Shown: piece by piece, positions 20,405-54,998 of the stretch | How positions within the stretch are numbered: position 1 is the first letter of the stretch | Layout of the letters: every line of letters starts with the position of its first letter | Assembly (NCBI GenBank): GCA_002700095.1 | Contig: PACL01000059.1 | Location: forward strand, 62,001-126,000 | Direction: 5' to 3' | From: Fulvimarina sp. | GTDB taxonomy: Bacteria > Pseudomonadota > Alphaproteobacteria > Rhizobiales > Rhizobiaceae | Length of the DNA: 64,000 bases | Made by a program: the position numbers and the translations under genes | Notes under the pieces: generated by a model | What the model saw: the letters and a program-made list of their open reading frames with translations, nothing else | Database searches by the model: none | What the model was told of the DNA's origin: nothing

Positions 20405-22135
20405 TCAGTTGGCCGGCTGGGTTCCGGTCTGGCCCGACATGTTCGAGCCGGTGGACGCGCCACCCTCGAGCCGCATGGTGTCGCGGTTCTCGGCATAGGT
20501 GTCCTTGTTGTACTCCGGCGCGTTGTTCAGCTGGTCCTCGGTGAACTGCGTGTAGAGATACAGCGTGCCGCTCTGGTCCCGCATGAAGTTCAGGTTGTCC
20601 ATGCCGACCGCAACCGGCTTCTCGCCAATACCGAGGAAGCCGCCGACGTCGACGATGACCGCATCGACCTGGCCATCGGCGTTGAGGGCGATGTCGCCGA
20701 TGTCGCCGACGCTCTGGTCGTTCGGCCCGTAGACCGTCGTGCCCATCAGGTCGTCCGCCGTCAGCTGCGCGTCGTCGCCGATCCGGGTCATGCCCTGGCG
20801 CTGGTCGCCGCCGGTCGAAGCCGTGGTCGTCGCATCACCCTGGGTGTCCATGGTGTTCTGCGCAGCCTGCTGCGTCTGGTCAGCCGCATTGCCCATGGCC
20901 TGGCCGGTGTTCTGGGCAGTCTGCTCGACCTGCTCGCCAGCATTGTCCATGGTCTGGCCGGCCGAATTGGCGGCCTGCTCGGTGCCGCTCATGGCAGAGC
21001 CCGCCGCTGCGCCACCGGCGGCAGCACCACCGGCCGCGACGCCGGGAATGGCTGAGGCCGACTGTTGGTCAGCGGTCTGCTGGTCGGCCGGCTGCGCGGT
21101 GTTCGCCGCCATCTGATCGTTGCCGCCGTCGGCATCGAAGGACGGCGCCTGCTCGAGGGCCTCCTTGTCGAGGGCGGCAGTGATGCGCGGCTCGGCGTCG
21201 TCGTCGCGGGTCATCTGCAGCTCGCCGAACGGGACGGCGACGTCCTTCTCGCCGATGCCGAGGAAGCCACCAACGCCGACCACGGCCGCATCGATCTGGC
21301 CGGAGGAGGCGAGGACGAGGTCGTTGATCCCGCCGAGATCGCTGGCGTCGTCACCCGGGCCCGAATAGACGTTGGTGCCGATGAGGTTCTCGGTCAGGTA
21401 CTGGTCCGGACCAACGGTGGCCGGATAGGAGCCTGCGCCGGCGGTATCGGTCGACGCTTCACGGTCGGTCTTGCCGGCCGCCATGTTGCCGGCGTCGCTC
21501 GAGGCCATCGACTGGCCAGTGTCGGTGCCGGTCGCCGTGCCATTGCCCGTCGCGGTGCCGGTGGCCGGCTGGGTCGCCGCCATCTCGTTACCGGCCGGTG
21601 CGGTCGTGCCGCCAGCCGACGAGGCGTCGGTCGAGGCCTGCTGCTGGGCCGCCTGCTGCTCTTCCATGGTCTGGAAGGTCGGCGCGCTGGACAGCTCGTC
21701 CATGCTCGCCTTCAGGATGGCGCGCGGCTCATTGTCCTCGCCCATGGTCCAGCCGATCTGCTGGAAGGGAATGGCGACGACCTTGGACTCGTCGTTGACG
21801 GTCGCGTTGACCACCGCGGCGACGACCTTGCCGTCGCTGCCCACGAGGAAGTTCTGAATGTCGCCGACCGACTGCGCGTCCTCGCCTTCGCCGTCATAGA
21901 GCGACTTGCCGGTGAGGTTCGACGCCAGATACTGGTCGCTCGACAGGTTGGTCAGGTAGTTGCCCGAGGCAGCCGCCTTGGTGGCATCACCCGACATCGC
22001 GCTACCCGACATCGTGCTGTCGGACTGGGTGGCTGCCGGCTGCTGCGTCTGGCCGGAGGTGGCCGCGTCCTGGGCCATGGCCGGCGCGGTGAGAAGAGCG
22101 GCAATCGCCGTCGTTGCGAGTAGCTTGCGGATCAT
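20405..22135 (-). CDS. Secreted triple PRC-barrel domain protein
   Basis: The 576-aa product has a signal peptide (residues 1-22, ending PAMA-Q) and three PRC-barrel domains at about 67-155, 244-334 and 457-542; domains 2 and 3 share VGGFLGIGEK exactly. Linkers are rich in Gln, Ala, Ser, Thr and Gly. Residues 388-430 form an Asn/Gln/Ala repeat (AGQTMDNAGEQVEQTAQNTG) resembling amphipathic helical stress proteins. PRC barrels often mediate protein or surface interactions. Function unknown. An EcfG-type promoter candidate lies 87 bases upstream of the start, suggesting stress induction. Confidence 0.85.
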   Translation of the reverse strand: MIRKLLATTAIAALLTAPAMAQDAATSGQTQQPAATQSDSTMSGSAMSGDATKAAASGNYLTNLSSDQYLASNLTGKSLYDGEGEDAQSVGDIQNFLVGSDGKVVAAVVNATVNDESKVVAIPFQQIGWTMGEDNEPRAILKASMDELSSAPTFQTMEEQQAAQQQASTDASSAGGTTAPAGNEMAATQPATGTATGNGTATGTDTGQSMASSDAGNMAAGKTDREASTDTAGAGSYPATVGPDQYLTENLIGTNVYSGPGDDASDLGGINDLVLASSGQIDAAVVGVGGFLGIGEKDVAVPFGELQMTRDDDAEPRITAALDKEALEQAPSFDADGGNDQMAANTAQPADQQTADQQSASAIPGVAAGGAAAGGAAAGSAMSGTEQAANSAGQTMDNAGEQVEQTAQNTGQAMGNAADQTQQAAQNTMDTQGDATTTASTGGDQRQGMTRIGDDAQLTADDLMGTTVYGPNDQSVGDIGDIALNADGQVDAVIVDVGGFLGIGEKPVAVGMDNLNFMRDQSGTLYLYTQFTEDQLNNAPEYNKDTYAENRDTMRLEGGASTGSNMSGQTGTQPAN

Positions 22136-22221
22136 GATGGAAACCTTTGTCTATATTATTGATAGACCAGTCGCGTGTCCGGCCTTGGCGGGCTGGAGCA
22201 CGCGACATTGGATGCCTAGAC

Positions 22222-22247
22222 AACCAGCGTCCGGGCATTTCGGTTCC
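22222..22247 (-). promoter_or_regulatory. EcfG-type promoter candidate for the PRC-barrel gene
   Basis: On the minus strand GGAAC (22247-22243) and GGTT (22225-22222) are separated by 17 bases. The alphaproteobacterial general stress sigma factor EcfG typically uses GGAAC-N16/17-CGTT. The site points to the PRC-barrel gene, whose ATG is at 22135. Confidence 0.65.
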
Positions 22248-22298
22248 CGATAAAACCGCAGCTTGGCGCGAAATCGGACGATGCGGCGCGGAAGTTTC

Positions 22299-22463
22299 CT
22301 AGCCTAGGACCAGAACGCCGAAGAGGATCAGCAGGAGCAGCCCGGCAAGAACAATGAAGATGAGGATCTTCGCGATGCCCGCCGATACGCCGGCGATGCC
22401 CCGAAAGCCGAGCAGGCTGGCAATCGCCGCAACAATCAAGAGAATGATGATCCATTCGAGCAT
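22299..22463 (-). CDS. DUF1328 small membrane protein (YtjA-like)
   Basis: The 54-aa product starts at an ATG at 22463 with a strong AAGGAG. It is almost wholly hydrophobic: two helices (about residues 3-24 and 29-52) with the family signature [19 protein letters not shown] between them. DUF1328/YtjA proteins are widespread small inner-membrane proteins of unknown function, often among stress genes. It sits next to the PRC-barrel gene in the same direction, but that gene has its own promoter candidate. Confidence 0.88.
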
Positions 22464-22684
22464 GCTGAACTCCTTCGACCCTGGTTCTTGGCGGAGCGGC
22501 CCCTCGGCCTGTCTCGCAAGAGGCATCTAGGGTGCGCGCGCGAAAGTTGGATGGAGGAGCGCGCCGACTGGCGGGAATGCGGTAAGAGCGGGCGTTCGCC
22601 CGTCGACAAGCCGCGGCGACTTCCTAGCTGATGCGGTTCGGCCGGCCCGGAGCGGGCGGCCTCTTGTTCGAATGGTTTGACCCG

Positions 22685-23647
22685 ATGCGAATACTGGCGC
22701 TCCTCAACCGCGACGGCGGCACGCTGAAGACCACGGATCTCGACTGGCTGTCGGCGCTGATCCGCGACGAATTCGCCGTCCATGGCCACGAGGTCACAGT
22801 CGAGCTCTGTGCCGGCTCGGACATCGTACCGGCGATCAAGAAGGCGGCCGCGACCGACGATCTCGACGTCCTCCTGGTCGGCGGCGGCGACGGCACGGTC
22901 TCGGCGGCCGTGGGTGCCTTGTATGAAGGCGATACGGCGCTCGCCATCCTGCCGGCGGGGACGATGAACCTGTTCGCCCGCACGCTGCAGATCCCGCTCG
23001 ATCTCGAGGAGGCTGTGAAGGCGCTCGCCGGCGGCCGGACCACGAAGGTCGACGTCGCCACCGTCAACGGCAAGCCCTTCGTCCACCAGTTCGCCACGGG
23101 CCTGCATGCCCGGATGGTGCGGTTTCGCGAGCGGATCAGCTACCGCTCGCGGCTCGGCAAAATGTGGGCGACGACGCGGGCCATCGGGCTGGCGTTCCGC
23201 AGGCTGCCGAAGGTGGAGCTGGTGATCGACGTGGACGGCCGCAGCGAGCGGCTGAAATGTTCGGCGCTGGCGATCTCGAACAATCTCTACGGCGACCGCC
23301 ACCTGCCCTTCGCCGACAATCCGAAGGGCGGCCAGCTCGGCGTCTACATCTGCACCGAGCGCCGGCTGGCGCGGGTCGCCAAGCTGACGGCCGACATCTT
23401 CGCCGGCCAGTGGCGCAAGAATCCGGATCTGGTGGTGAAATCGGCGACGCGGGTCGATCTCGCCCATCGCGGCAAGCCGCGGTCGAACCGTGCGGTGCGC
23501 GACGGCGAGCTGGAGGCGCTCGACGATCTGTCGCGGGTGGAGATCCACCCGCTGGCGCTCACCGTGCTGGTGCCGGCGGAGGCGACCTATCTCGAGCAGG
23601 AGGTCGAGGTCGGGAGCAGGCCGCAGGTGGAAGCCGCGGCGCGCTGA
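22685..23647 (+). CDS. Diacylglycerol/sphingosine kinase-family lipid kinase
   Basis: The 320-aa product has the catalytic-domain motif LLVGGGDGTVSAAVGAL (about residues 66-82) and LAILPAGTMNLFART shortly after, typical of the DAGK catalytic superfamily. The C-terminal beta-sandwich follows. Such proteins phosphorylate lipid hydroxyls at the membrane with ATP; the substrate (diacylglycerol, sphingoid base or other) cannot be told. The start is uncertain: the ATG at 22685 (MRILALLNRDGG) gives the family-like N-terminus, but an in-frame ATG lies at 22631 and neither has a clear ribosome site. Confidence 0.85.
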   Translation: MRILALLNRDGGTLKTTDLDWLSALIRDEFAVHGHEVTVELCAGSDIVPAIKKAAATDDLDVLLVGGGDGTVSAAVGALYEGDTALAILPAGTMNLFARTLQIPLDLEEAVKALAGGRTTKVDVATVNGKPFVHQFATGLHARMVRFRERISYRSRLGKMWATTRAIGLAFRRLPKVELVIDVDGRSERLKCSALAISNNLYGDRHLPFADNPKGGQLGVYICTERRLARVAKLTADIFAGQWRKNPDLVVKSATRVDLAHRGKPRSNRAVRDGELEALDDLSRVEIHPLALTVLVPAEATYLEQEVEVGSRPQVEAAAR

Positions 23648-23718
23648 ACGGGCGCGGCGGCACCGTTGGCCGGGAAAGCGGGCCAGCAGGCCGCTCCCCG
23701 CATCGGCCGGCTCTCGCA

Positions 23719-23997
23719 TCAGTGGTTGCGCAGGGCCTCGATAAGATCCGCCTTGGACATGTCCGAGCGGCCTTCGATTCCGAGTTCTTGGGCCCGGCCG
23801 TAGAGATCGTCCTTCGTCCAGTCCTCATAGGCCGGCGTCTTGCCGCCCTTCTTCGACGGGTGCATGTGCGGGTTCGCCTTGGCGTTGGAAATCCGCGCGG
23901 CCTTTTCCCTGGAATTTCCTTCCTCTCGCAGGGTCTCGTAGAGATCCGGGTCCTTCAGCGCAGGGTTGCCGCTGCTTGCGGAGGATGATTTGGCCAT
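23719..23997 (-). CDS. Small stress-type protein with Rho N-terminal-like domain (DUF7218-like)
   Basis: The 92-aa, hydrophilic product has a first half rich in Lys, Asn and Glu (YETLREEGNSREKAARISNA) that resembles plant-type KGG/stress peptides. The second half is a SAP/Rho-N-like helix-turn-helix (YEDWTKDDLYGRAQELGIEG, MSKADLIEALRNH). Such proteins may bind nucleic acid. It lies inside the stress island on the same strand as most stress genes. Upstream only a weak EcfG-like match was found, CGAAC-N15-CGTT at 24016-24039. Confidence 0.75.
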   Translation of the reverse strand: MAKSSSASSGNPALKDPDLYETLREEGNSREKAARISNAKANPHMHPSKKGGKTPAYEDWTKDDLYGRAQELGIEGRSDMSKADLIEALRNH

Positions 23998-24137
23998 GAC
24001 ACGTCTCCCTGGTTGAACGGGCGACGACCGTGACGTTCGGGAACGCCGCCTGCCCGGATGCCTCGATTGGCGGTCGGCCGCGACGGCGGTTGCCCGCCGC
24101 GGCCGTGCCGGGTTCTCGTCTGTTCGAGCCTGACGGC

Positions 24138-24410
24138 TCAGTTGGCGGTGCCGGCAGCCGGCCCGTCCTCGTTGCTCGGCGCGACAACGGTCGCGTCATT
24201 AGCGTCGGCCGCGCCCCCCGCAGTCCCGGCGACCGGCGGCTCGCCGGTGGTCTCAGGGCCGGCACCGATCGAGGAGTCCGGCTGGCTGGCGCCATAGATC
24301 TGCACGCCGATGAACACCACCACGCACAAGGCCAGTGCGGCGATGAGGATCATCAGGACCGGGGTTCCGCGTCGGCCCTGCCTGGCCTTTTCGTCGTCGA
24401 GTTTGGTCAC
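24138..24410 (-). CDS. Small single-pass membrane protein under an EcfG-type promoter
   Basis: The 90-aa product has a charged N-terminus (MTKLDDEKARQGRRGTP), one transmembrane helix at about residues 17-40, and a disordered Gly/Ala/Pro/Thr tail that should be periplasmic. I do not recognise the family. A consensus EcfG promoter candidate (GGAAC-N16-CGTT) lies 137 bases upstream at 24547-24571, the best such match in the window, which argues that this is a real, stress-regulated gene. Confidence 0.65.
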   Translation of the reverse strand: MTKLDDEKARQGRRGTPVLMILIAALALCVVVFIGVQIYGASQPDSSIGAGPETTGEPPVAGTAGGAADANDATVVAPSNEDGPAAGTAN

Positions 24411-24546
24411 CGGGTATTTCCTCCTGTTTCGATGTTCGGAATTTTGGGGATCGGCTGCATGGGCTCGTCCGCAAGGCCCTGTGCCCCGGACGACGCCTTG
24501 CCGGCTGCCGTGTTCGAGCCCGCTGATGCGGGCATGTCATGGTGAA

Positions 24547-24571
24547 AACGTCCCGGACGCCAAGCCGTTCC
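24547..24571 (-). promoter_or_regulatory. Consensus EcfG promoter candidate
   Basis: On the minus strand GGAAC (24571-24567), 16 bases, then CGTT (24550-24547): an exact match to the general stress response consensus. The next gene in that direction starts at 24410. The long leader (about 130 bases) holds no recognised element. Confidence 0.7.
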
Positions 24572-24696
24572 CGGCTGCTGCCGGAGTGGCGGGGCGATGA
24601 CGGAAGCTGTTTGCCGCAAGCATGTGAAAACGGGCACCGTCCTCCGCGAAGGCTGATACCCGTCATTTCACTGGCCGAATGACTGAACGGAGAGGC

Positions 24697-25143
24697 TCAG
24701 ACCTCGCCGCCCCTGCGGTAGGAGGTGATCGCCCGCCAGACGGCCCAGCCGACGGCGCCGACGACCGGGACCAGCAGAAGCTTCTTGTTCCGCTTGGCGG
24801 ACTGGAACAGCAGCGGCGCGTTGGAGAGCACTGCAACCCCGGCGATCGAGGCGATGTCGCGCTGCAGCCTGTCGTCGGCCCGCTTGCGGGGCGGGCGCCT
24901 GACGACGATCGTCGCGATCCATGTCGCGACGATCAAGACGAAGAAGCCCGCGGCAAAGCCGAGAGACGCCGCCAGCGGCCCGTAGAGCCAGGCGATCCAG
25001 ACATAGAGGGCGCTCATCAGATAGGTGAGCATGAGGATGGCGAACAACGCCATCGCCGCATACAGCACCGCCAGCCGGCGCATGCGGGCGACATAGACGC
25101 CCGCCTCGCCGGTCACCAGCTTGGCGACGAGTTGCCAGATCAT
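24697..25143 (-). CDS. Membrane protein of the DUF883-like pair (phage holin superfamily III-like)
   Basis: The 148-aa product has an N-terminal amphipathic part, two adjacent transmembrane helices at about residues 28-52 and 54-80, a basic loop (RRPPRKRADDRL) and a C-terminal segment with a further hydrophobic stretch near 121-135. The arrangement resembles holin-like YqjE/YqjK-type proteins that follow DUF883 genes in many bacteria. It starts 6 bases after the DUF883-like stop, so the two form an operon under the EcfG-type promoter at 25597. Confidence 0.65.
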   Translation of the reverse strand: MIWQLVAKLVTGEAGVYVARMRRLAVLYAAMALFAILMLTYLMSALYVWIAWLYGPLAASLGFAAGFFVLIVATWIATIVVRRPPRKRADDRLQRDIASIAGVAVLSNAPLLFQSAKRNKKLLLVPVVGAVGWAVWRAITSYRRGGEV

Positions 25144-25149
25144 CGGGCC

Positions 25150-25515
25150 TTACCGGAACAGGCGAGCGTAGAGATAACCGACGCCGGCCGCGATCAGCAC
25201 CGCCTTGATCGGCTCGGCGCGGATACGCTCGGTCACTTCTTCCTCGAGGTCTGACGCCGCGTCCTGGGCCTGGCGCAGATACTGCTCGCCGCGCTGGCGC
25301 ACGTCCTCGCGCAGCGCCGAGGCCTGGCGTCGGACGTCGTCGGCCCCATGGGTGGCCATCGACCTCACCGCGTCGGACAGCGCCGCCACGTCCTCGCGCA
25401 GCCGTCCCAGCTGTTCCTCGACATTGGCCCGGTCGGCCTGGGTCTTCGGATCGGAACCCGGGGTGTGGGCAGCGCCACCGGGCATGGTGGGATCGTTGGC
25501 CATGTTGTCGCTCAT
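25150..25515 (-). CDS. ElaB/YqjD/DUF883-like membrane-anchored helical protein
   Basis: The 121-aa product is a long amphipathic helix (about residues 28-95, including VEEQLGRLREDVAALSDAV) followed by a C-terminal glycine-containing hydrophobic anchor (PIKAVLIAAGVGYLYARLFR). This layout is that of ElaB/YqjD proteins, which in E. coli are stationary-phase, membrane-bound and bind ribosomes. It is first in a two-gene operon. An EcfG-type promoter candidate lies 82 bases before its start, matching stationary-phase or stress expression. Confidence 0.8.
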   Translation of the reverse strand: MSDNMANDPTMPGGAAHTPGSDPKTQADRANVEEQLGRLREDVAALSDAVRSMATHGADDVRRQASALREDVRQRGEQYLRQAQDAASDLEEEVTERIRAEPIKAVLIAAGVGYLYARLFR

Positions 25516-25596
25516 TGATCAGTCCGTTCGTGGTCTGTGCGTTGCTGGAGAAGGCGTTGCTGAAAAGCCGGGGATGCGGATCGCATCTTCGTGAAT

Positions 25597-25621
25597 AACA
25601 AGGCGAGGGCGCTCCGGTTCC
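25597..25621 (-). promoter_or_regulatory. EcfG-type promoter candidate for the DUF883-like operon
   Basis: On the minus strand GGAAC (25621-25617) and TGTT (25600-25597) are 16 bases apart. It lies in the gap after ecfG (stop at 25660) and before the DUF883-like start at 25515, so these genes can be transcribed apart from ecfG. Confidence 0.62.
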
Positions 25622-25659
25622 CGCGGGTGGTCCCGCCGCGTCCGGTCTCCCGCCGCCGC

Positions 25660-26211
25660 TCAGGCGGCCGGTGCGACGCCGATGATCTGGCTGGAGATCG
25701 AATCCGGCCCGTAGTCGCCGTCGCCCTCGACGCCGAGGATCTCGGCAATGCGCGTGCGGGCCCGCGACACCCGGCTCTTGATCGTGCCGACGGCGCATTT
25801 GCAGATCTCGGCCGCTTCCTCATAGGAAAAGCCCGATGCGCCGATGAGGATCAGCGCCTCGCGCTGGTCGTCGGGCAGCAGCTCGAGCGCCTTGCGGAAG
25901 TCCTGCAGATCGAGATGGCCCTGCTGCTCCGGGTGGCCGGCGAGCTGCATGGCGTGGATGCCGTCGACGTCCTGAACCTCGCGGCCCTTCTTGCGCATCT
26001 GGGTGTAGAACTCGTTGCGCAGGATCGTGAACAGCCATGCCTTCAGATTGGTGCCGGGCTGGAAGGTGTGCTGCTTGTCCCAGGCCTTGACCAGTGTCTC
26101 CTGAACGAGATCATCGGCGCGATCGAAAGACCCCGTCAGCGACGTCGCGAAAGCACGAAGGTTCGGGATGATCGTGATGAGTTCCTTGCGGAAATCGAAC
26201 TCTACGCTCAT
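25660..26211 (-). CDS. ecfG: General stress response sigma factor EcfG
   Basis: The 183-aa ECF sigma factor has a sigma-2 region (about residues 10-75, FDRADDLVQETLVKAWDKQ) and sigma-4 (about 115-170, LPDDQREALILIGASGFSYEEAAEICKCAVGTIKSRVSRAR). The CAVGTIKSRVSRAR helix and the link to nepR identify the EcfG family. EcfG directs RNA polymerase to GGAAC/CGTT promoters when released from NepR. The ATG at 26211 has GAGGG upstream; an in-frame GTG at 26223 overlaps the nepR stop and is less likely. It is the second gene of the nepR-ecfG operon. Confidence 0.95.
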   Translation of the reverse strand: MSVEFDFRKELITIIPNLRAFATSLTGSFDRADDLVQETLVKAWDKQHTFQPGTNLKAWLFTILRNEFYTQMRKKGREVQDVDGIHAMQLAGHPEQQGHLDLQDFRKALELLPDDQREALILIGASGFSYEEAAEICKCAVGTIKSRVSRARTRIAEILGVEGDGDYGPDSISSQIIGVAPAA

Positions 26212-26219
26212 GGATGCCC

Positions 26220-26432
26220 TCACTCCCGATTTTTCTTCGTTGCCGACTCCGCCTGATCCAGCGCATCGAGAAGGCTGAGGAAACGGTCCGGGACCGGCTC
26301 GCTTGCGACGTCGTCGTAATAGGCCTTCAACTGCTTTCCGATCGCCGTATTGATGCCGAACTCGGCGGGCGGCTGGGTCTTTGGGGTCTGTCCCGTCTGC
26401 AACTTGTCATCCTCATTTTCGCGATCGCTCAT
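26220..26432 (-). CDS. nepR: Anti-sigma factor NepR
   Basis: The 70-aa product carries the NepR core at about residues 24-62: INTAIGKQLKAYYDDVASEP followed by VPDRFLSLLDALDQAE. NepR binds EcfG and is displaced by phosphorylated PhyR through sigma mimicry. The ATG at 26432 (MSDRENEDDK) is chosen; an in-frame ATG at 26453 is possible. It lies 8 bases upstream of the EcfG start, the standard nepR-ecfG order, and diverges from phyR. Confidence 0.95.
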   Translation of the reverse strand: MSDRENEDDKLQTGQTPKTQPPAEFGINTAIGKQLKAYYDDVASEPVPDRFLSLLDALDQAESATKKNRE

Positions 26433-26625
26433 CGACCATCTCGATACTGGCATCGGCCGCTCGTGCGACGGCAATTGATTTTCAAACGTCTCATCGGGAT
26501 CCTGCGCGCTTCCAATTTCTTGGCCGAGAGATAAATCGGTAACTGCATCCCGCAAGCCGTCAGATGGATATGGATGCAATTTTCGGCCAGCTCTTCACAC
26601 CGCGCGCCAACTGTCCCATTTAGGC

Positions 26626-26653
26626 GGAAACTCACGGCACGCGGCCTTGTTCC
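26626..26653 (-). promoter_or_regulatory. EcfG-type promoter candidate between nepR and phyR
   Basis: On the minus strand GGAAC (26653-26649) and AGTT (26632-26629) are 16 bases apart, about 197 bases before nepR. Read on the plus strand the same element offers GGAAAC (26626-26631), 17 bases, GTT (26649-26651), a degenerate match facing phyR. The stretch GGAAACTC...TTGTTCC is thus nearly symmetric. Autoregulation of nepR-ecfG and phyR is known in related bacteria. Confidence 0.5.
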
Positions 26654-26729
26654 CGGCCTCGCTAACGCGGCCTGTGCCGAATTCGTCAATAATTGAACGT
26701 CTTGTCCAAGGGACACGAGGGGAGTCTAA

Positions 26730-27524
26730 ATGTCGATGTCATCCCGCATAGCGCCGCACATTCCCTATCTGCGCCGCTATTCCCGGGCCCTTACCGGTTC
26801 GCAGGCGAGCGGCGATGCGTATGTCGCTGCGGTTCTCGAGGCGCTGATTGCCGATCCCTCGCTGTTTCCGGAAGACCAGTCTCCCCGCATCTCGCTCTAC
26901 AAGCTGTTCTCGTCGCTCTGGCAGTCGCTAGATGTGAACATTCGCGAAGACGCACCGACGTCGGCCTGGGAAGAACGCGCGGCGAAGAACCTGAAGGCGA
27001 TCGCGCCGCTGCCGCGCCAGGCCTTCCTGCTCGTCGCCGTCGAGGGCTTCACCAGCGAGGAGGCGGGGCTGATTCTCGGCGTCGACCAGGCGCGCTTCTC
27101 CGAGATGATCGACCAGGCCGGATCCGACATCGGCCGGCAGGTCTCGACCAACATCATGATCATCGAGGACGAGCCGCTGATCGCGATGGACATCGAGCAG
27201 ATGGTCGAGAGCCTCGGCCACAAGGTGACCGGCATCGCCCGCACCCACAAGGAGGCGATGGCGCTCTTCGAGAGCCACAATCCGGGCATGGTGCTCGCCG
27301 ACATCCAGCTCGCCGACGGCAGCTCGGGCATCGACGCGGTCAACGACATCCTGGCCAAGGTCTCGGTGCCGGTGATCTTCATCACCGCCTTCCCGGAGCG
27401 GCTTCTGACCGGTGAGCGCCCGGAGCCGACCTTCCTCGTCACCAAGCCCTTCAATCCGGACATGGTAAAGGCGCTAATCAGCCAGGCGCTGTTCTTCGAC
27501 AGCGGCGATCGCGCCGCCGCCTGA
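26730..27524 (+). CDS. phyR: General stress response anti-anti-sigma regulator PhyR
   Basis: The 264-aa product is a fusion of an N-terminal sigma-like domain (about residues 1-135, with sigma-2- and sigma-4-like parts that mimic EcfG) and a C-terminal receiver domain (141-260). The receiver carries the acidic pair Glu146/Asp147, phospho-acceptor Asp191 in LADIQL, Thr219 and Lys239 in TKPF. Phosphorylated PhyR binds NepR and releases EcfG. Divergent from nepR-ecfG, as in most Hyphomicrobiales. A GCCGCC-TGA-GGCGGC hairpin places the stop codon in its loop. Confidence 0.96.
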   Translation: MSMSSRIAPHIPYLRRYSRALTGSQASGDAYVAAVLEALIADPSLFPEDQSPRISLYKLFSSLWQSLDVNIREDAPTSAWEERAAKNLKAIAPLPRQAFLLVAVEGFTSEEAGLILGVDQARFSEMIDQAGSDIGRQVSTNIMIIEDEPLIAMDIEQMVESLGHKVTGIARTHKEAMALFESHNPGMVLADIQLADGSSGIDAVNDILAKVSVPVIFITAFPERLLTGERPEPTFLVTKPFNPDMVKALISQALFFDSGDRAAA

Positions 27525-27844
27525 GGCGGCCGCCCCGCGCATCCCTGCAGGATACCGGGGCATTCGTCACGCTCGCCCGCGCCGCGCGGCCGAGGGACGC
27601 CGGTCGAAACGGTCGGACGGCGTTTCGAGGACCGCTGGCGGAGATGGTCCGGATGGCGAGGCAATGTCGTCGCCTCCGGATGTGCCTCGCAAACGCCGTG
27701 CCGCGATGTCGGGAAACGGTGCCGGTGAGATCGCTGCCGGCAGGCGGGCTTCTGCCTCGCTGCCTCTTCCGGCAGGCGCCCTTTGCAAGAACGGATCCGG
27801 GTCGTCTGGACGATCCGGTCTCAGCCGGAAATCTTCGGCTGGAA
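27525..27844. other. Gap between phyR and the kinase promoters
   Basis: These 320 bases follow the phyR stop. Short open frames exist on both strands, but none has a convincing ribosome site or recognisable product. Two promoter candidates for the kinase follow directly downstream (27845-27869 and 27970-27995). Confidence 0.4.
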
Positions 27845-27869
27845 GGAACGCAATCCCATCGCCCGGGTT
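27845..27869 (+). promoter_or_regulatory. EcfG-type promoter candidate, distal, for the HWE kinase
   Basis: GGAAC (27845-27849), 16 bases, GGTT (27866-27869), pointing to the kinase gene about 175 bases downstream. It matches the EcfG pattern except that the base before GTT is G rather than C. Confidence 0.5.
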
Positions 27870-27969
27870 GACCTCGGCCTTACCGGGCCCTTTGTAGTCG
27901 TGGCTATCGAACCTCTTCAGCGCGGCGCGGCGGGATCATCACGGTGGGGGACTGGAAGGCAATTGCCGT

Positions 27970-27995
27970 GGAACCGTGTGTCGTATTCGAAGGTT
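27970..27995 (+). promoter_or_regulatory. EcfG-type promoter candidate, proximal, for the HWE kinase
   Basis: GGAAC (27970-27974), 17 bases, GGTT (27992-27995). The kinase ATG is 49 bases beyond the -10, an ordinary leader length. With the distal site this makes two EcfG-like promoters in tandem before the same gene, implying positive feedback on the sensor. Confidence 0.6.
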
Positions 27996-28044
27996 TCACA
28001 GGCGAGAACACGGTGTTGCACCGGATCGTTGTGAGCGTCGGTTA

Positions 28045-29022
28045 ATGTTGGCAAAGAAAATCTTGAGAGCGATCGAAAATACGGAGATGTCCGTATTCGC
28101 CCAAGATTTGGATTTGCGATATTCGTGGGTCTCGAATGCCGGGCAGTCCTGGCTTGCCGGAGCGCGCGAAGGCACGAGCGATGCCGATATCCTCGGCGAA
28201 GTGGCGGCCCAGCGGTCCACCGAGATGAAGCGCGAGGTTCTGACCACCGGTCAGCCGCTGCGCTACGAGATGTCGATCAACCAGGGCAACCAAGCCCGCT
28301 GGTACGACATCTGCGTCGACATCGACCGCGACGAGAATGGGGTCGCCTGCGGTATCATCGGGACATCCTTCGACATCACCGACCAGAAGCGGCGCGAGGA
28401 GACGCTCAAGACGCTGCTGCGCGAGCTGTCGCACCGCTCCAAGAACCTCCTTGCCATCATCCAGAGCCTCGCCAGCCAGACCGCGCGGCACTCGCTGACT
28501 GTGCCGGAATTCCTCGTCCGCTTCCGCGGGCGGATCCAGTCGCTCTCCTATTCCCAGGACATCGTCACCGACGCGGACTGGCGGGGCGCCGACCTGCAGA
28601 GCCTCGTCACCACGCAGGTCGAGCGCTATGCGCCGGACGGGATGGACCAGATCGAGTTCAGTCCCGTCGACGTCTATCTCTCCCCCACCGCTTCGCTGCA
28701 TGTCGGGCTCGCTTTGCACGAGTTGGCGGTCAACGCCGCGTCCTACGGCTCCCTGTCGGTGCCGGGCGGCAAGGTGTCCATCGACGCCCGGATCGAGGAT
28801 CACGGCGAAGAGACGGCGCTGGTGATCGCGTGGCAGGAGCGCGGCGGCCCTCGCGTCAGGCCGGAACGCGACGCCCGTTTCGGGACCTCCACCCTCGAGC
28901 GCATCGTGCCGAACGCCGTCGGCGGTTCGGCGCGGCTGGAATATCTGTCGGAGGGCATCCGCTACACCCTGACGGTTCCGGAAGCCCAGTACGAGGTGAT
29001 GCAGGGCGGCGCGGGCGACTGA
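28045..29022 (+). CDS. PAS-HWE histidine kinase, likely PhyR kinase
   Basis: The 325-aa soluble protein has an N-terminal PAS domain (about residues 8-115, ending GIIGTSFDITDQKRREE) and a HWE/HisKA2-type kinase: H-box LLRELSHRSKNLLAIIQSLA with His130, N-box HELAVNAASYG (His225, Glu226, Asn230), and the defining Trp-x-Glu (IAWQERGG, Trp263 and Glu265), then a G-box RFGTSTLERI. It has no membrane helix, so it senses a cytosolic or redox/light signal. Kinases of this class phosphorylate PhyR. Linkage and EcfG-like promoters support that partner; it is inferred. The ATG at 28045 is chosen. Confidence 0.88.
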   Translation: MLAKKILRAIENTEMSVFAQDLDLRYSWVSNAGQSWLAGAREGTSDADILGEVAAQRSTEMKREVLTTGQPLRYEMSINQGNQARWYDICVDIDRDENGVACGIIGTSFDITDQKRREETLKTLLRELSHRSKNLLAIIQSLASQTARHSLTVPEFLVRFRGRIQSLSYSQDIVTDADWRGADLQSLVTTQVERYAPDGMDQIEFSPVDVYLSPTASLHVGLALHELAVNAASYGSLSVPGGKVSIDARIEDHGEETALVIAWQERGGPRVRPERDARFGTSTLERIVPNAVGGSARLEYLSEGIRYTLTVPEAQYEVMQGGAGD

Positions 29023-30696: not shown

Positions 30697-30981
30697 ATGT
30701 TTCGCAAGATTTCTTTCGCGACGCTCGCGGTTGCCGCCATGCTGACGGCAGGCTGCACCACGGAAGACCGGTACACGGGCGGCGGCGCGCTCGCCGGTGG
30801 TGCCGTCGGCGCTCTTGCTGGCCAGGCCATCGGGGGCAATACCGGCTCGACCCTGGCGGGTGCGGCCATCGGTGCCGGCGTCGGCGCCGTGGCCGGCAAC
30901 GTCATCGGCCGGTCCAGGGAAAATCCGGGCTATTGCCGTTACTCCGACGGCAACGTCTACCGCTGCCCGGACGGCTACTGA
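30697..30981 (+). CDS. Glycine-zipper 2TM lipoprotein
   Basis: The 94-aa product has a lipoprotein signal (FATLAVAAMLTAGC, lipidated Cys at about residue 20). Next comes a double glycine zipper: GGGALAGGAVGALAGQAIGG and AGAAIGAGVGAVAGNVIG, as in the 17-kDa antigen/SlyB-like family. The end, YCRYSDGNVYRCPDGY, holds two Cys likely to form a disulfide. It should be outer-membrane or periplasmic. Glycine zippers insert in or pack against membranes. The next gene shares the SCPDGY-type ending. Confidence 0.85.
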   Translation: MFRKISFATLAVAAMLTAGCTTEDRYTGGGALAGGAVGALAGQAIGGNTGSTLAGAAIGAGVGAVAGNVIGRSRENPGYCRYSDGNVYRCPDGY

Positions 30982-54161: not shown

Positions 54162-54965
54162 TCAATCCCGCAGGGCGATCGCCGCGAGCTGCCGGCCGTA
54201 GTCGGGCTCGCCGCGATGGGTGGTGCGGCGGAAGGAGAAGAAGCTGTCCGGCTCGCCATAGGTGCAACGCCCGACAAAGCCGGCCGAGACGCCGGCCTTA
54301 GAGAGCACCGCGACGATGAAGCCGGGAAGGTCGAACTGCCGCTTGTCCGGACCGTTCCCCGGCTTGAAGAAGCGCTCGCGCGCGGCGTCGCCGTCGAGGA
54401 AGGCGGCCATCATGTCGAGGCCGACCTCGTAGTTCGGCTGGGTGATCGTCGGACCGAGGATCGCGGTGATCGAGTGGCGTTCGGCGCCGGCCGTCTCCAT
54501 CGCCGCGATGGTGGCCTCGAGGACGCCGCCGAGCGCCCCGCGCCAGCCGGCATGGGCGGCGCCGACGACGCGGTTCCTCGGGTCGCTGAACAGCACCGGG
54601 CCGCAGTCGGCGGTGACCACGCCGATCGCAAGGCCGGGCGTCGTCGTGACGATGCCGTCGACCTTCGGCCGCTCGCCGGAAAACGGCGCATCGACGACGA
54701 TCGCCGCACCGGAATGGACCTGCCAGGGGGTTGCGAGCCGGTCGGGCGAAACGCCCAGCGCTGCCATGGCGAGGGTGCGGTTGCCATGGACGCTGGCCGG
54801 CTCGTCCTTCGAGCCGATGCCGGCGTTGAGGCCGTCATAGAGCCCGGTGGAGACGCCGCCACGCCGGCCGAAGAAGCCATGGGCGATGCCGTCGTCCGAC
54901 AGTTCCGGCGCACGGATCACGTCCTCGTCCCTCAGCGGCTCGGCGTCGATCATGGGGTTCGCCAT
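54162..54965 (-). CDS. pgeF: Peptidoglycan editing factor PgeF (YfiH/laccase-domain family)
   Basis: The 267-aa product (from the ATG at 54965, MANPMIDAEPL) has HGFFGRRGGVSTGLYDGLN at its start and the metal-site motifs HSG, VVTADCGPVLFSD and AAHAGWRGALGG of the polyphenol-oxidase/laccase-domain family. PgeF removes misincorporated L-Ser from cell-wall precursors in E. coli. An upstream in-frame start at 54992 overlaps the midA-like stop at 54999. Part of the lgt-midA-pgeF-peptidase operon. Confidence 0.92.
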   Translation of the reverse strand: MANPMIDAEPLRDEDVIRAPELSDDGIAHGFFGRRGGVSTGLYDGLNAGIGSKDEPASVHGNRTLAMAALGVSPDRLATPWQVHSGAAIVVDAPFSGERPKVDGIVTTTPGLAIGVVTADCGPVLFSDPRNRVVGAAHAGWRGALGGVLEATIAAMETAGAERHSITAILGPTITQPNYEVGLDMMAAFLDGDAARERFFKPGNGPDKRQFDLPGFIVAVLSKAGVSAGFVGRCTYGEPDSFFSFRRTTHRGEPDYGRQLAAIALRD

Positions 54966-54998
54966 GGGGGCGGATGGTGGTCGAGGCGACATGGGAAG

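Follow-up and report, generated by a model that had tools for sequence, protein, structure and literature searches.

A probable general-stress-response island around the nepR-ecfG operon of Fulvimarina sp., with a member of an uncatalogued membrane-protein family

The stretch of DNA analysed here (the window) comprises 64,000 nucleotides of a Fulvimarina sp. draft genome (assembly GCA_002700095.1, contig PACL01000059.1, positions 62,001 to 126,000), and positions are given in the numbering of the window. It contains a region which is, with a probability of about 90% as judged from sequence, a general-stress-response island around a self-regulated nepR-ecfG operon. The small membrane-protein genes located by the regulator very probably belong to the stress defence, as the initial annotation had proposed for the unrecognised envelope proteins of the region; exact promoter sites, an excess over chance, conservation and a genome-wide enrichment all support that proposal. 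Genes for a PRC-barrel protein, a 90-aa membrane protein (s90) and a DUF883-like protein are each preceded by a correctly oriented EcfG-type site, kept in relatives and present in all seven, all seven and six of the seven genomes of the Jiella group, respectively.

The regulatory core is formed by four genes, and their labels in the initial annotation (NepR, PhyR, extracytoplasmic function (ECF) sigma factor and HWE kinase) were confirmed by family models. The sigma factor gene ecfG (25660-26223, minus strand) scored 312.6 bits with NF009199 (cut-off 219) and matched PF04542 and PF08281; NF009199 itself is titled RNA polymerase sigma factor, and we take the protein, from its context, to be of the ECF15 (EcfG) type. 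The anti-sigma factor gene nepR (26220-26432, minus strand; PF18557, E 1.4e-17) overlaps ecfG by 4 bp, and a single copy of each was found in the genome, ecfG at E <= 1e-15. PhyR, a response regulator with a sigma-like domain (26730-27524, plus strand), matched PF22029, PF22233 and PF00072 and was over the cut-off of NF006623, and the PAS-HWE histidine kinase (28045-29022, plus strand) matched PF07536 (E 3.2e-23) and PF08448. Of the locus type PhyR-NepR-EcfG the region contains the sigma factor, the adjoining NepR, the two-domain PhyR and a promoter site before nepR-ecfG, and its HWE kinase is a candidate for the one acting on PhyR.

A strict site was defined as an exact match to GGAAC-N16/17-NGTT, and both strands of the window were scanned. 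Seven matches were identified, six of them being the sites listed in the initial annotation, every one exact in position and strand. They precede the PRC-barrel gene (22222-22247, minus strand; GGAAC-N17-GGTT, 86 nt from the start), s90 (24547-24571, minus strand; GGAAC-N16-CGTT, the exact consensus, 136 nt), the DUF883-like/Holin-X-like pair (25597-25621, minus strand; GGAAC-N16-TGTT, 81 nt), nepR-ecfG (26629-26653, minus strand; GGAAC-N16-AGTT, 196 nt) and the HWE kinase, which has a distal site (27845-27869, plus strand; GGAAC-N16-GGTT, 175 nt) and a proximal one (27970-27995, plus strand; GGAAC-N17-GGTT, 49 nt). The seventh match (54334-54358, minus strand) was ruled out as a promoter: it lies inside an open reading frame (ORF; 54162-54992, minus strand) and is probably due to chance.

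That the six sites match by chance and precede genes by coincidence is scarcely credible. Dinucleotide shuffles of the correctly oriented intergenic DNA (nine stretches adding up to 2,128 bp, including the DNA upstream of phyR and of the DUF1328, lipid-kinase and DUF7218 genes) gave 0.052 expected matches against six observed, in agreement with the earlier estimate of far under one in about 2 kb, and the same two boxes at spacings of 8-31 produced no other comparable peak in oriented intergenic DNA. With 0.14 matches expected per 5.8 kb, the Poisson probability of at least six is 8e-9, or about 8e-6 corrected for all windows; elsewhere in the genome the maximum was two sites per 5.8-kb stretch, among the 100 of 132 matches listed. 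In favour of chance, the whole draft (5.62 Mb, 93% complete) is not enriched in the strict motif over the reversed control, with 132 matches, about one per 43 kb, vs 129. Single matches are therefore mostly due to chance, whereas the cluster, given its probability, is not. The chance account is thus refuted for the set as a whole, also by the conserved boxes and the leading dyad found in relatives (below), and it still applies to single sites, above all to 27970-27995, which is not kept beyond the closest relative (L061).

The genome scan suggested in the initial annotation lent support as well. Outside the window 94 sites were classified (one of them counted twice, from the 100 of 132 matches listed, 7 of which fall in the window): 33 were correctly oriented and no more than 300 nt ahead of a gene, 42 fell in coding DNA and the other 19 elsewhere. 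The corresponding numbers for 75 controls, part of the 129 reversed-motif matches, were 7, 48 and 20 (Fisher p = 1e-4 for 33/94 vs 7/75). Genes were called in 90 real-site and 70 control loci with a simple codon-usage caller of our own, checked against the window alone, and, three short loci apart, sites less than 400 nt from the beginning of a locus were not used. From the 33 genes behind sites we chose ten for scanning, and these comprise three CsbD genes, Pmp3, DUF3309, PRC, ferritin-like, TerB, topoisomerase IB and a sigma-70-family factor; by their predicted families this is a general-stress profile. Overlapping sites on both strands also precede another PRC-barrel gene, a small one outside the island (locus L019, 1501-1527).

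Eighty named loci were fetched with PhyR, of which 24 (L061-L084) were assigned to Aurantimonadaceae by record names and our own placing, leaving 56 others. The closest named record returned was Aurantimonas sp. 22II-16-19i, whose PhyR is 98% identical to that of the window, and the genus is accordingly taken to be Jiella/Aurantimonas. Gene order of the island is largely preserved in the 24 Aurantimonadaceae loci: the Holin-X-like, DUF883-like, ecfG, nepR, phyR and kinase genes were each found with upstream DNA in all 24, the PRC-barrel, lipid-kinase and s90 genes in 22, DUF1328 in 20 and DUF7218 in 10. Loci of Mesorhizobium, Aminobacter and Aquamicrobium type contain part of the gene set, and in Mesorhizobium-like loci the order is partly preserved.

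Sites in relatives were counted up to 350 nt upstream; some of those credited to PRC are in fact the more distant DUF1328 site. In Aurantimonadaceae, strict sites (opposite-strand matches in brackets) were identified before PRC in 12/22 (1), DUF1328 in 11/20 (0), s90 in 6/22 (0), DUF883 in 13/24 (0), nepR in 11/24 (8), phyR in 8/24 (11) and the kinase in 14/24 (1), the bracketed counts of nepR and phyR being affected by the single intergenic region that both genes share; the reversed motif gave 0 for every gene but the kinase. In the other 56 loci the counts were 40/40 (0) for DUF1328, 2/12 (0) for s90, 30/36 (8) for DUF883, 27/38 (37) for nepR, 54/56 (27) for phyR and 29/44 (1) for the kinase. 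The Jiella group comprises seven genomes (the window and L061-L066), with a strict site before PRC, s90 and nepR in 7/7 and before DUF883 in 6/7. The PRC site is located at 86-90 nt in L061-L066, with boxes invariant in the alignment, and the s90 site at 125-202 nt in the same loci, while the nepR site keeps its place at 193-197 nt in L061-L067, again with conserved boxes. In footprint alignments GGAAC and GTT are islands of identity amid drifting DNA.

An unbiased dyad count covered 183 upstream regions from L062-L084 and excluded the window and L061. The commonest dyad was GGAAC-N17-GTT with 52 occurrences, against 22 for the next dyad unrelated to it and 24 for the top one of the opposite strand. 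The GGAAC..GTT motif matched 66 of the 183 regions; the next of 89 permuted motifs matched 15, and their mean was 1.5. These counts are not independent, since the regions share ancestry and overlap in part. Another genome of the genus (G003) presented five sites in 5.5 kb around phyR, in identical orientations. Conservation in relatives, put forward in the initial annotation as a check, was borne out in the Jiella group for the sites before PRC, s90, nepR and DUF883 and failed, in most other Aurantimonadaceae, for PRC and s90 at the same place.

Sites move between genera. Genomes of the Jiella group have one at PRC and none at DUF1328; Aurantimonas, and most Aureimonas in which the gene occurs, have it at DUF1328. 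Of the kinase sites, the distal one is kept in four of the seven Jiella-type genomes (window, L061, L062 and L065) and the proximal one is common to the window and L061 only. The kinase upstream DNA of L062-L066 contains GGAAC-N16-CATT at 117-134 nt, outside the strict pattern, where the window has a decayed CGAAC; CATT after GGAAC occurs among published sites of Sphingomonas melonis (PMC6599016). With this distribution and the CGAAC decay the proximal site gives the impression of a recent gain, and it is the weakest point of the claim.

Such loss and relocation, together with the distances of 81-136 nt between the envelope genes and their sites, could suggest that only the regulatory genes (nepR-ecfG and the kinase) are functional targets and that the envelope genes depend mainly on other promoters, their sites contributing little. 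We regard this as very unlikely in view of the strict sites of the Jiella-type genomes before PRC, s90 and DUF883, of the s90 homologues with sites of their own on other contigs or more than 50 kb from nepR, and of a PRC-barrel gene of Mesorhizobium loti which is located near an rpoE2-like gene and is strongly heat-induced (PMC3989490).

The gene s90 (24138-24410, minus strand) encodes a single-pass membrane protein of a family which is recognised by alignments, is marked by an [RK]QG motif and is without a Pfam or NCBIfam model. The protein itself had no Pfam-A or NCBIfam match, and single relatives show scattered weak ones. In the alignments the [RK]QG motif is followed, three positions later, by a G; then come a single helix and a tail that varies. 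Before the helix there are 5 basic and 3 acidic residues, and after it 0 basic and 7 acidic. By the positive-inside rule the basic side of a helix is the inner one, and the predicted topology is N-in, C-out, which would put the [RK]QG segment in the cytoplasm and the acidic tail, probably disordered, on the outside. A short ORF ahead of s90 and overlapping its start (end 24407) was considered and ruled out, stop codons interrupting the frame in L063-L066.

Of 297 genomes sampled from the order, a profile search identified s90 in at least 55, a lower bound, only part of the candidates being scored. NepR (E <= 0.001) was present in 55/55 of the s90 genomes, window included, and in 127/242 of the others, numbers uncorrected for phylogeny; the NepR match of one genome (G144) lies below the family cut-off and is still at E <= 0.001. 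Among the best 29 of 55 non-window s90 matches, from 11 genera, a strict site was found within 300 nt upstream in 29/29, with 3/29 on the opposite strand and 0/29 for the reversed motif. As several homologues with their own sites are on other contigs or more than 50 kb from nepR, these sites do not owe their presence to linkage with the locus. Outside the order (385 genomes of the class) nine matches were read, and a site was present in 4/4 with the QG motif and in 0/5 without it, a split made after the result was seen; NepR was identified in three of the four genomes with QG-bearing matches. Plasmids carry the gene as well: in 12 of 20 records, of our choosing, a strict site was located within 350 nt in 10, the other two copies having one a relaxed site and one none. 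One plasmid homologue (L314, LZK74_23790) belongs to the pSymB plasmid of Sinorhizobium meliloti strain Ak57. Most plasmid homologues (L314-L316, L318 and L320-L324) present, by eye, a C-terminal end DRDPT..GTGG..Q.VTP.GTEK which is not in the s90 of the window.

Among the ecfG-linked copies, 26 are without a strict site. Twelve of these, from Aurantimonadaceae, lie 81-213 nt behind the Holin-X-like gene, three more (L095, L099 and L104) lie 22-52 nt behind it, and six have GGAAC-N16/17-CATT 32-38 nt upstream of s90. All 12 ecfG-linked copies outside Aurantimonadaceae carry the QG motif. It is a fair guess that the DUF883 promoter serves the siteless copies. In Hyphomicrobiales the s90 family is probably among the regular targets of EcfG, either through its own promoter or downstream in the DUF883-like operon. 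That it is also a dedicated effector, or a sensor-side part, of the EcfG response in Hyphomicrobiales and a few other orders, plasmid-borne copies included, is a proposal to which we give even odds.

The co-occurrence with NepR bears further on the suggestion that the sites are real and chiefly serve another ECF sigma factor with overlapping specificity. There is precedent in S. meliloti, where targets of RpoE6 overlap those of RpoE2 (PMC6180224). Here only one EcfG-type factor was found at E <= 1e-15, in a survey restricted to that type, the sites cluster at the ecfG locus, and every s90 genome of the order sample also has NepR; the suggestion is highly improbable.

In addition to the genome-wide parity of motif and control, several observations weigh against an EcfG-driven island. 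Upstream of phyR the window contains no strict site, only one with a single mismatch. Three of the six window sites are 136-196 nt from the start codon, and EcfG sites of S. melonis show a preference for less than 100 nt (PMC6599016). The DUF1328 site is absent in the Jiella group and present in other genera, and most relatives outside that group lack the PRC and s90 sites at these positions; for PRC outside Aurantimonadaceae the count is 5/23, equal to that of the opposite strand (5/23). At the kinase the reversed motif also matches in 4 of the 24 Aurantimonadaceae. For s90, the ecfG-linked copies have strict sites in only the 6/22 and 2/12 loci counted above, and the copies of L068, L069, L071, L080 and L106 have neither the CATT variant nor a Holin-X-like gene in front. 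Ten of the 16 siteless Aurantimonadaceae copies also lack a strict DUF883 site; five of these have a relaxed one, and L073, L074, L077, L081 and L082 have neither a strict nor a relaxed one. Finally, one outside-order genome with QG motif and site (G647) has no NepR at E <= 0.001, two congeners matching weakly.

With these points weighed, the island around a self-regulated nepR-ecfG operon is still the reading we prefer, and its operation can be outlined from the known pathway, from which EcfG binding, stress induction and the action of this kinase on this PhyR are taken. Under stress a kinase would phosphorylate PhyR, which would remove NepR from EcfG, and EcfG-RNA polymerase would then begin transcription at the GGAAC-N16/17-NGTT promoters. 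EcfG would read the promoter of its own nepR-ecfG operon, a feedback, as well as those of the PAS-HWE kinase, the PRC-barrel gene, the DUF883-like/Holin-X-like pair and s90. The kinase near phyR, being itself EcfG-driven in this scheme, may possibly feed back upstream of PhyR. The nepR site (26626-26653) is nearly palindromic, and its plus-strand reading toward phyR is GGAAA..GTT, not GGAAC. It is possibly a two-way promoter serving phyR too, a like plus-strand match being identified only in L062 and L064.

The envelope genes of the island are the following. The PRC-barrel protein (20405-22135, minus strand; 576 aa) matched PF05239 (E 5.4e-25) and has, by eye, a signal peptide-like N-terminus; of the triple PRC-barrel described in the initial annotation the family is confirmed and two of the three repeats were scored alone by Pfam, the third being seen by eye only. 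Directly 5' of its ribosome-binding site there is an inverted repeat, GTCTAT-N7/8-ATAGAC (22149-22167), whose stem recurs in 11/22 Aurantimonadaceae loci and in 0/23 other loci having the PRC gene; operator and hairpin are indistinguishable because the stem is invariant. The DUF1328 membrane protein (22299-22475, minus strand) matched PF07043, in accordance with its earlier label. Between the island envelope genes are a lipid-kinase-like gene (22631-23647) and a DUF7218/Rho_N gene (23719-23997); neither these two nor DUF1328 has a strict site upstream in the window.

The pair behind the 25597-25621 site had been annotated as DUF883-like, which holds, through relatives, for its first gene only. 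The DUF883-like protein (25150-25515, minus strand) was not matched by PF05957, and among 17 relatives scanned PF05957 matched weakly in 11 and DUF883_C in 7. Its partner is instead a Holin-X-like membrane protein (24697-25143, minus strand): PF07332 (Phage_holin_3_6) was identified in 14 of 18 relatives scanned, the window protein scoring 17.4 bits (E 0.0046), under the curated cut-off of 28.4. Elsewhere in the window, a glycine-zipper protein gene (30697-30981) has no strict site in the window, and in L068, L071, L072 and L080 an EcfG site is located 39-41 nt upstream of it.

The island sets the switch beside a few envelope genes that are very probably driven by it, and this gives a short knock-out list. 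It also points to one uncatalogued membrane-protein family for annotation, co-occurring with NepR and bearing EcfG sites in many genera. A literature search found no paper on the s90 family, and locus tags in supplements or subscription papers could hide such genes. EcfG islands are known, and the s90 family is new.

Earlier work has described the switch together with its consensus and self-regulation (PMC7083833, PMC6599016, PMC6180224, PMC3616915). The region shares with the alphaproteobacterial PhyR-NepR-EcfG (ECF15) systems the same three regulators, the nepR/ecfG overlap, the nepR site, the HWE kinase and the promoter pattern; it differs from them in a phyR without strict site and in the several site-bearing envelope genes beside the regulator. 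In Sphingopyxis granuli the consensus is GGAAC-N16-CGTT, nepR and ecfG overlap by 4 bp and an EcfG site precedes nepR (PMC7083833). In the EcfG regulon of S. melonis Fr1, GGAAC..GTT and GGAAC..CATT sites precede genes for a PRC-barrel protein, for topoisomerase IB and for small proteins that are hypothetical or secreted (PMC6599016); PRC-barrel and topoisomerase IB also appeared behind sites in the present genome scan, a likeness drawn from the gene descriptions of that source. Its transcripts #1442, #1446, #1462 and #1478 (PRC-barrel) are numbered close to nepR, #1444 (PMC6599016), and to judge by these transcript numbers a target cluster may be located near the regulator in that organism too.

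In S. meliloti the PRC-barrel gene SMb20522 and the sensor kinase exsG are RpoE2-dependent, with mapped GGAAC..GTT promoters (PMC6180224), a PRC-barrel gene and a sensor kinase being likewise proposed targets in the island, and 150 of the 202 protein genes raised by RpoE2 are without predicted function (PMC3616915). Under heat shock of M. loti MAFF303099 the M values were 6.08 for mll3685 (PRC-barrel), 4.14 for mll3692, 4.98 for mll3694 and 2.4 for the nearby rpoE2-like mll3697 (PMC3989490). The M. loti region places a PRC-barrel gene and its neighbours by an rpoE2-like gene, and the Mesorhizobium loci of the present sample have a similar gene set; going by locus tags alone, mll3685-mll3697 would be the same island.

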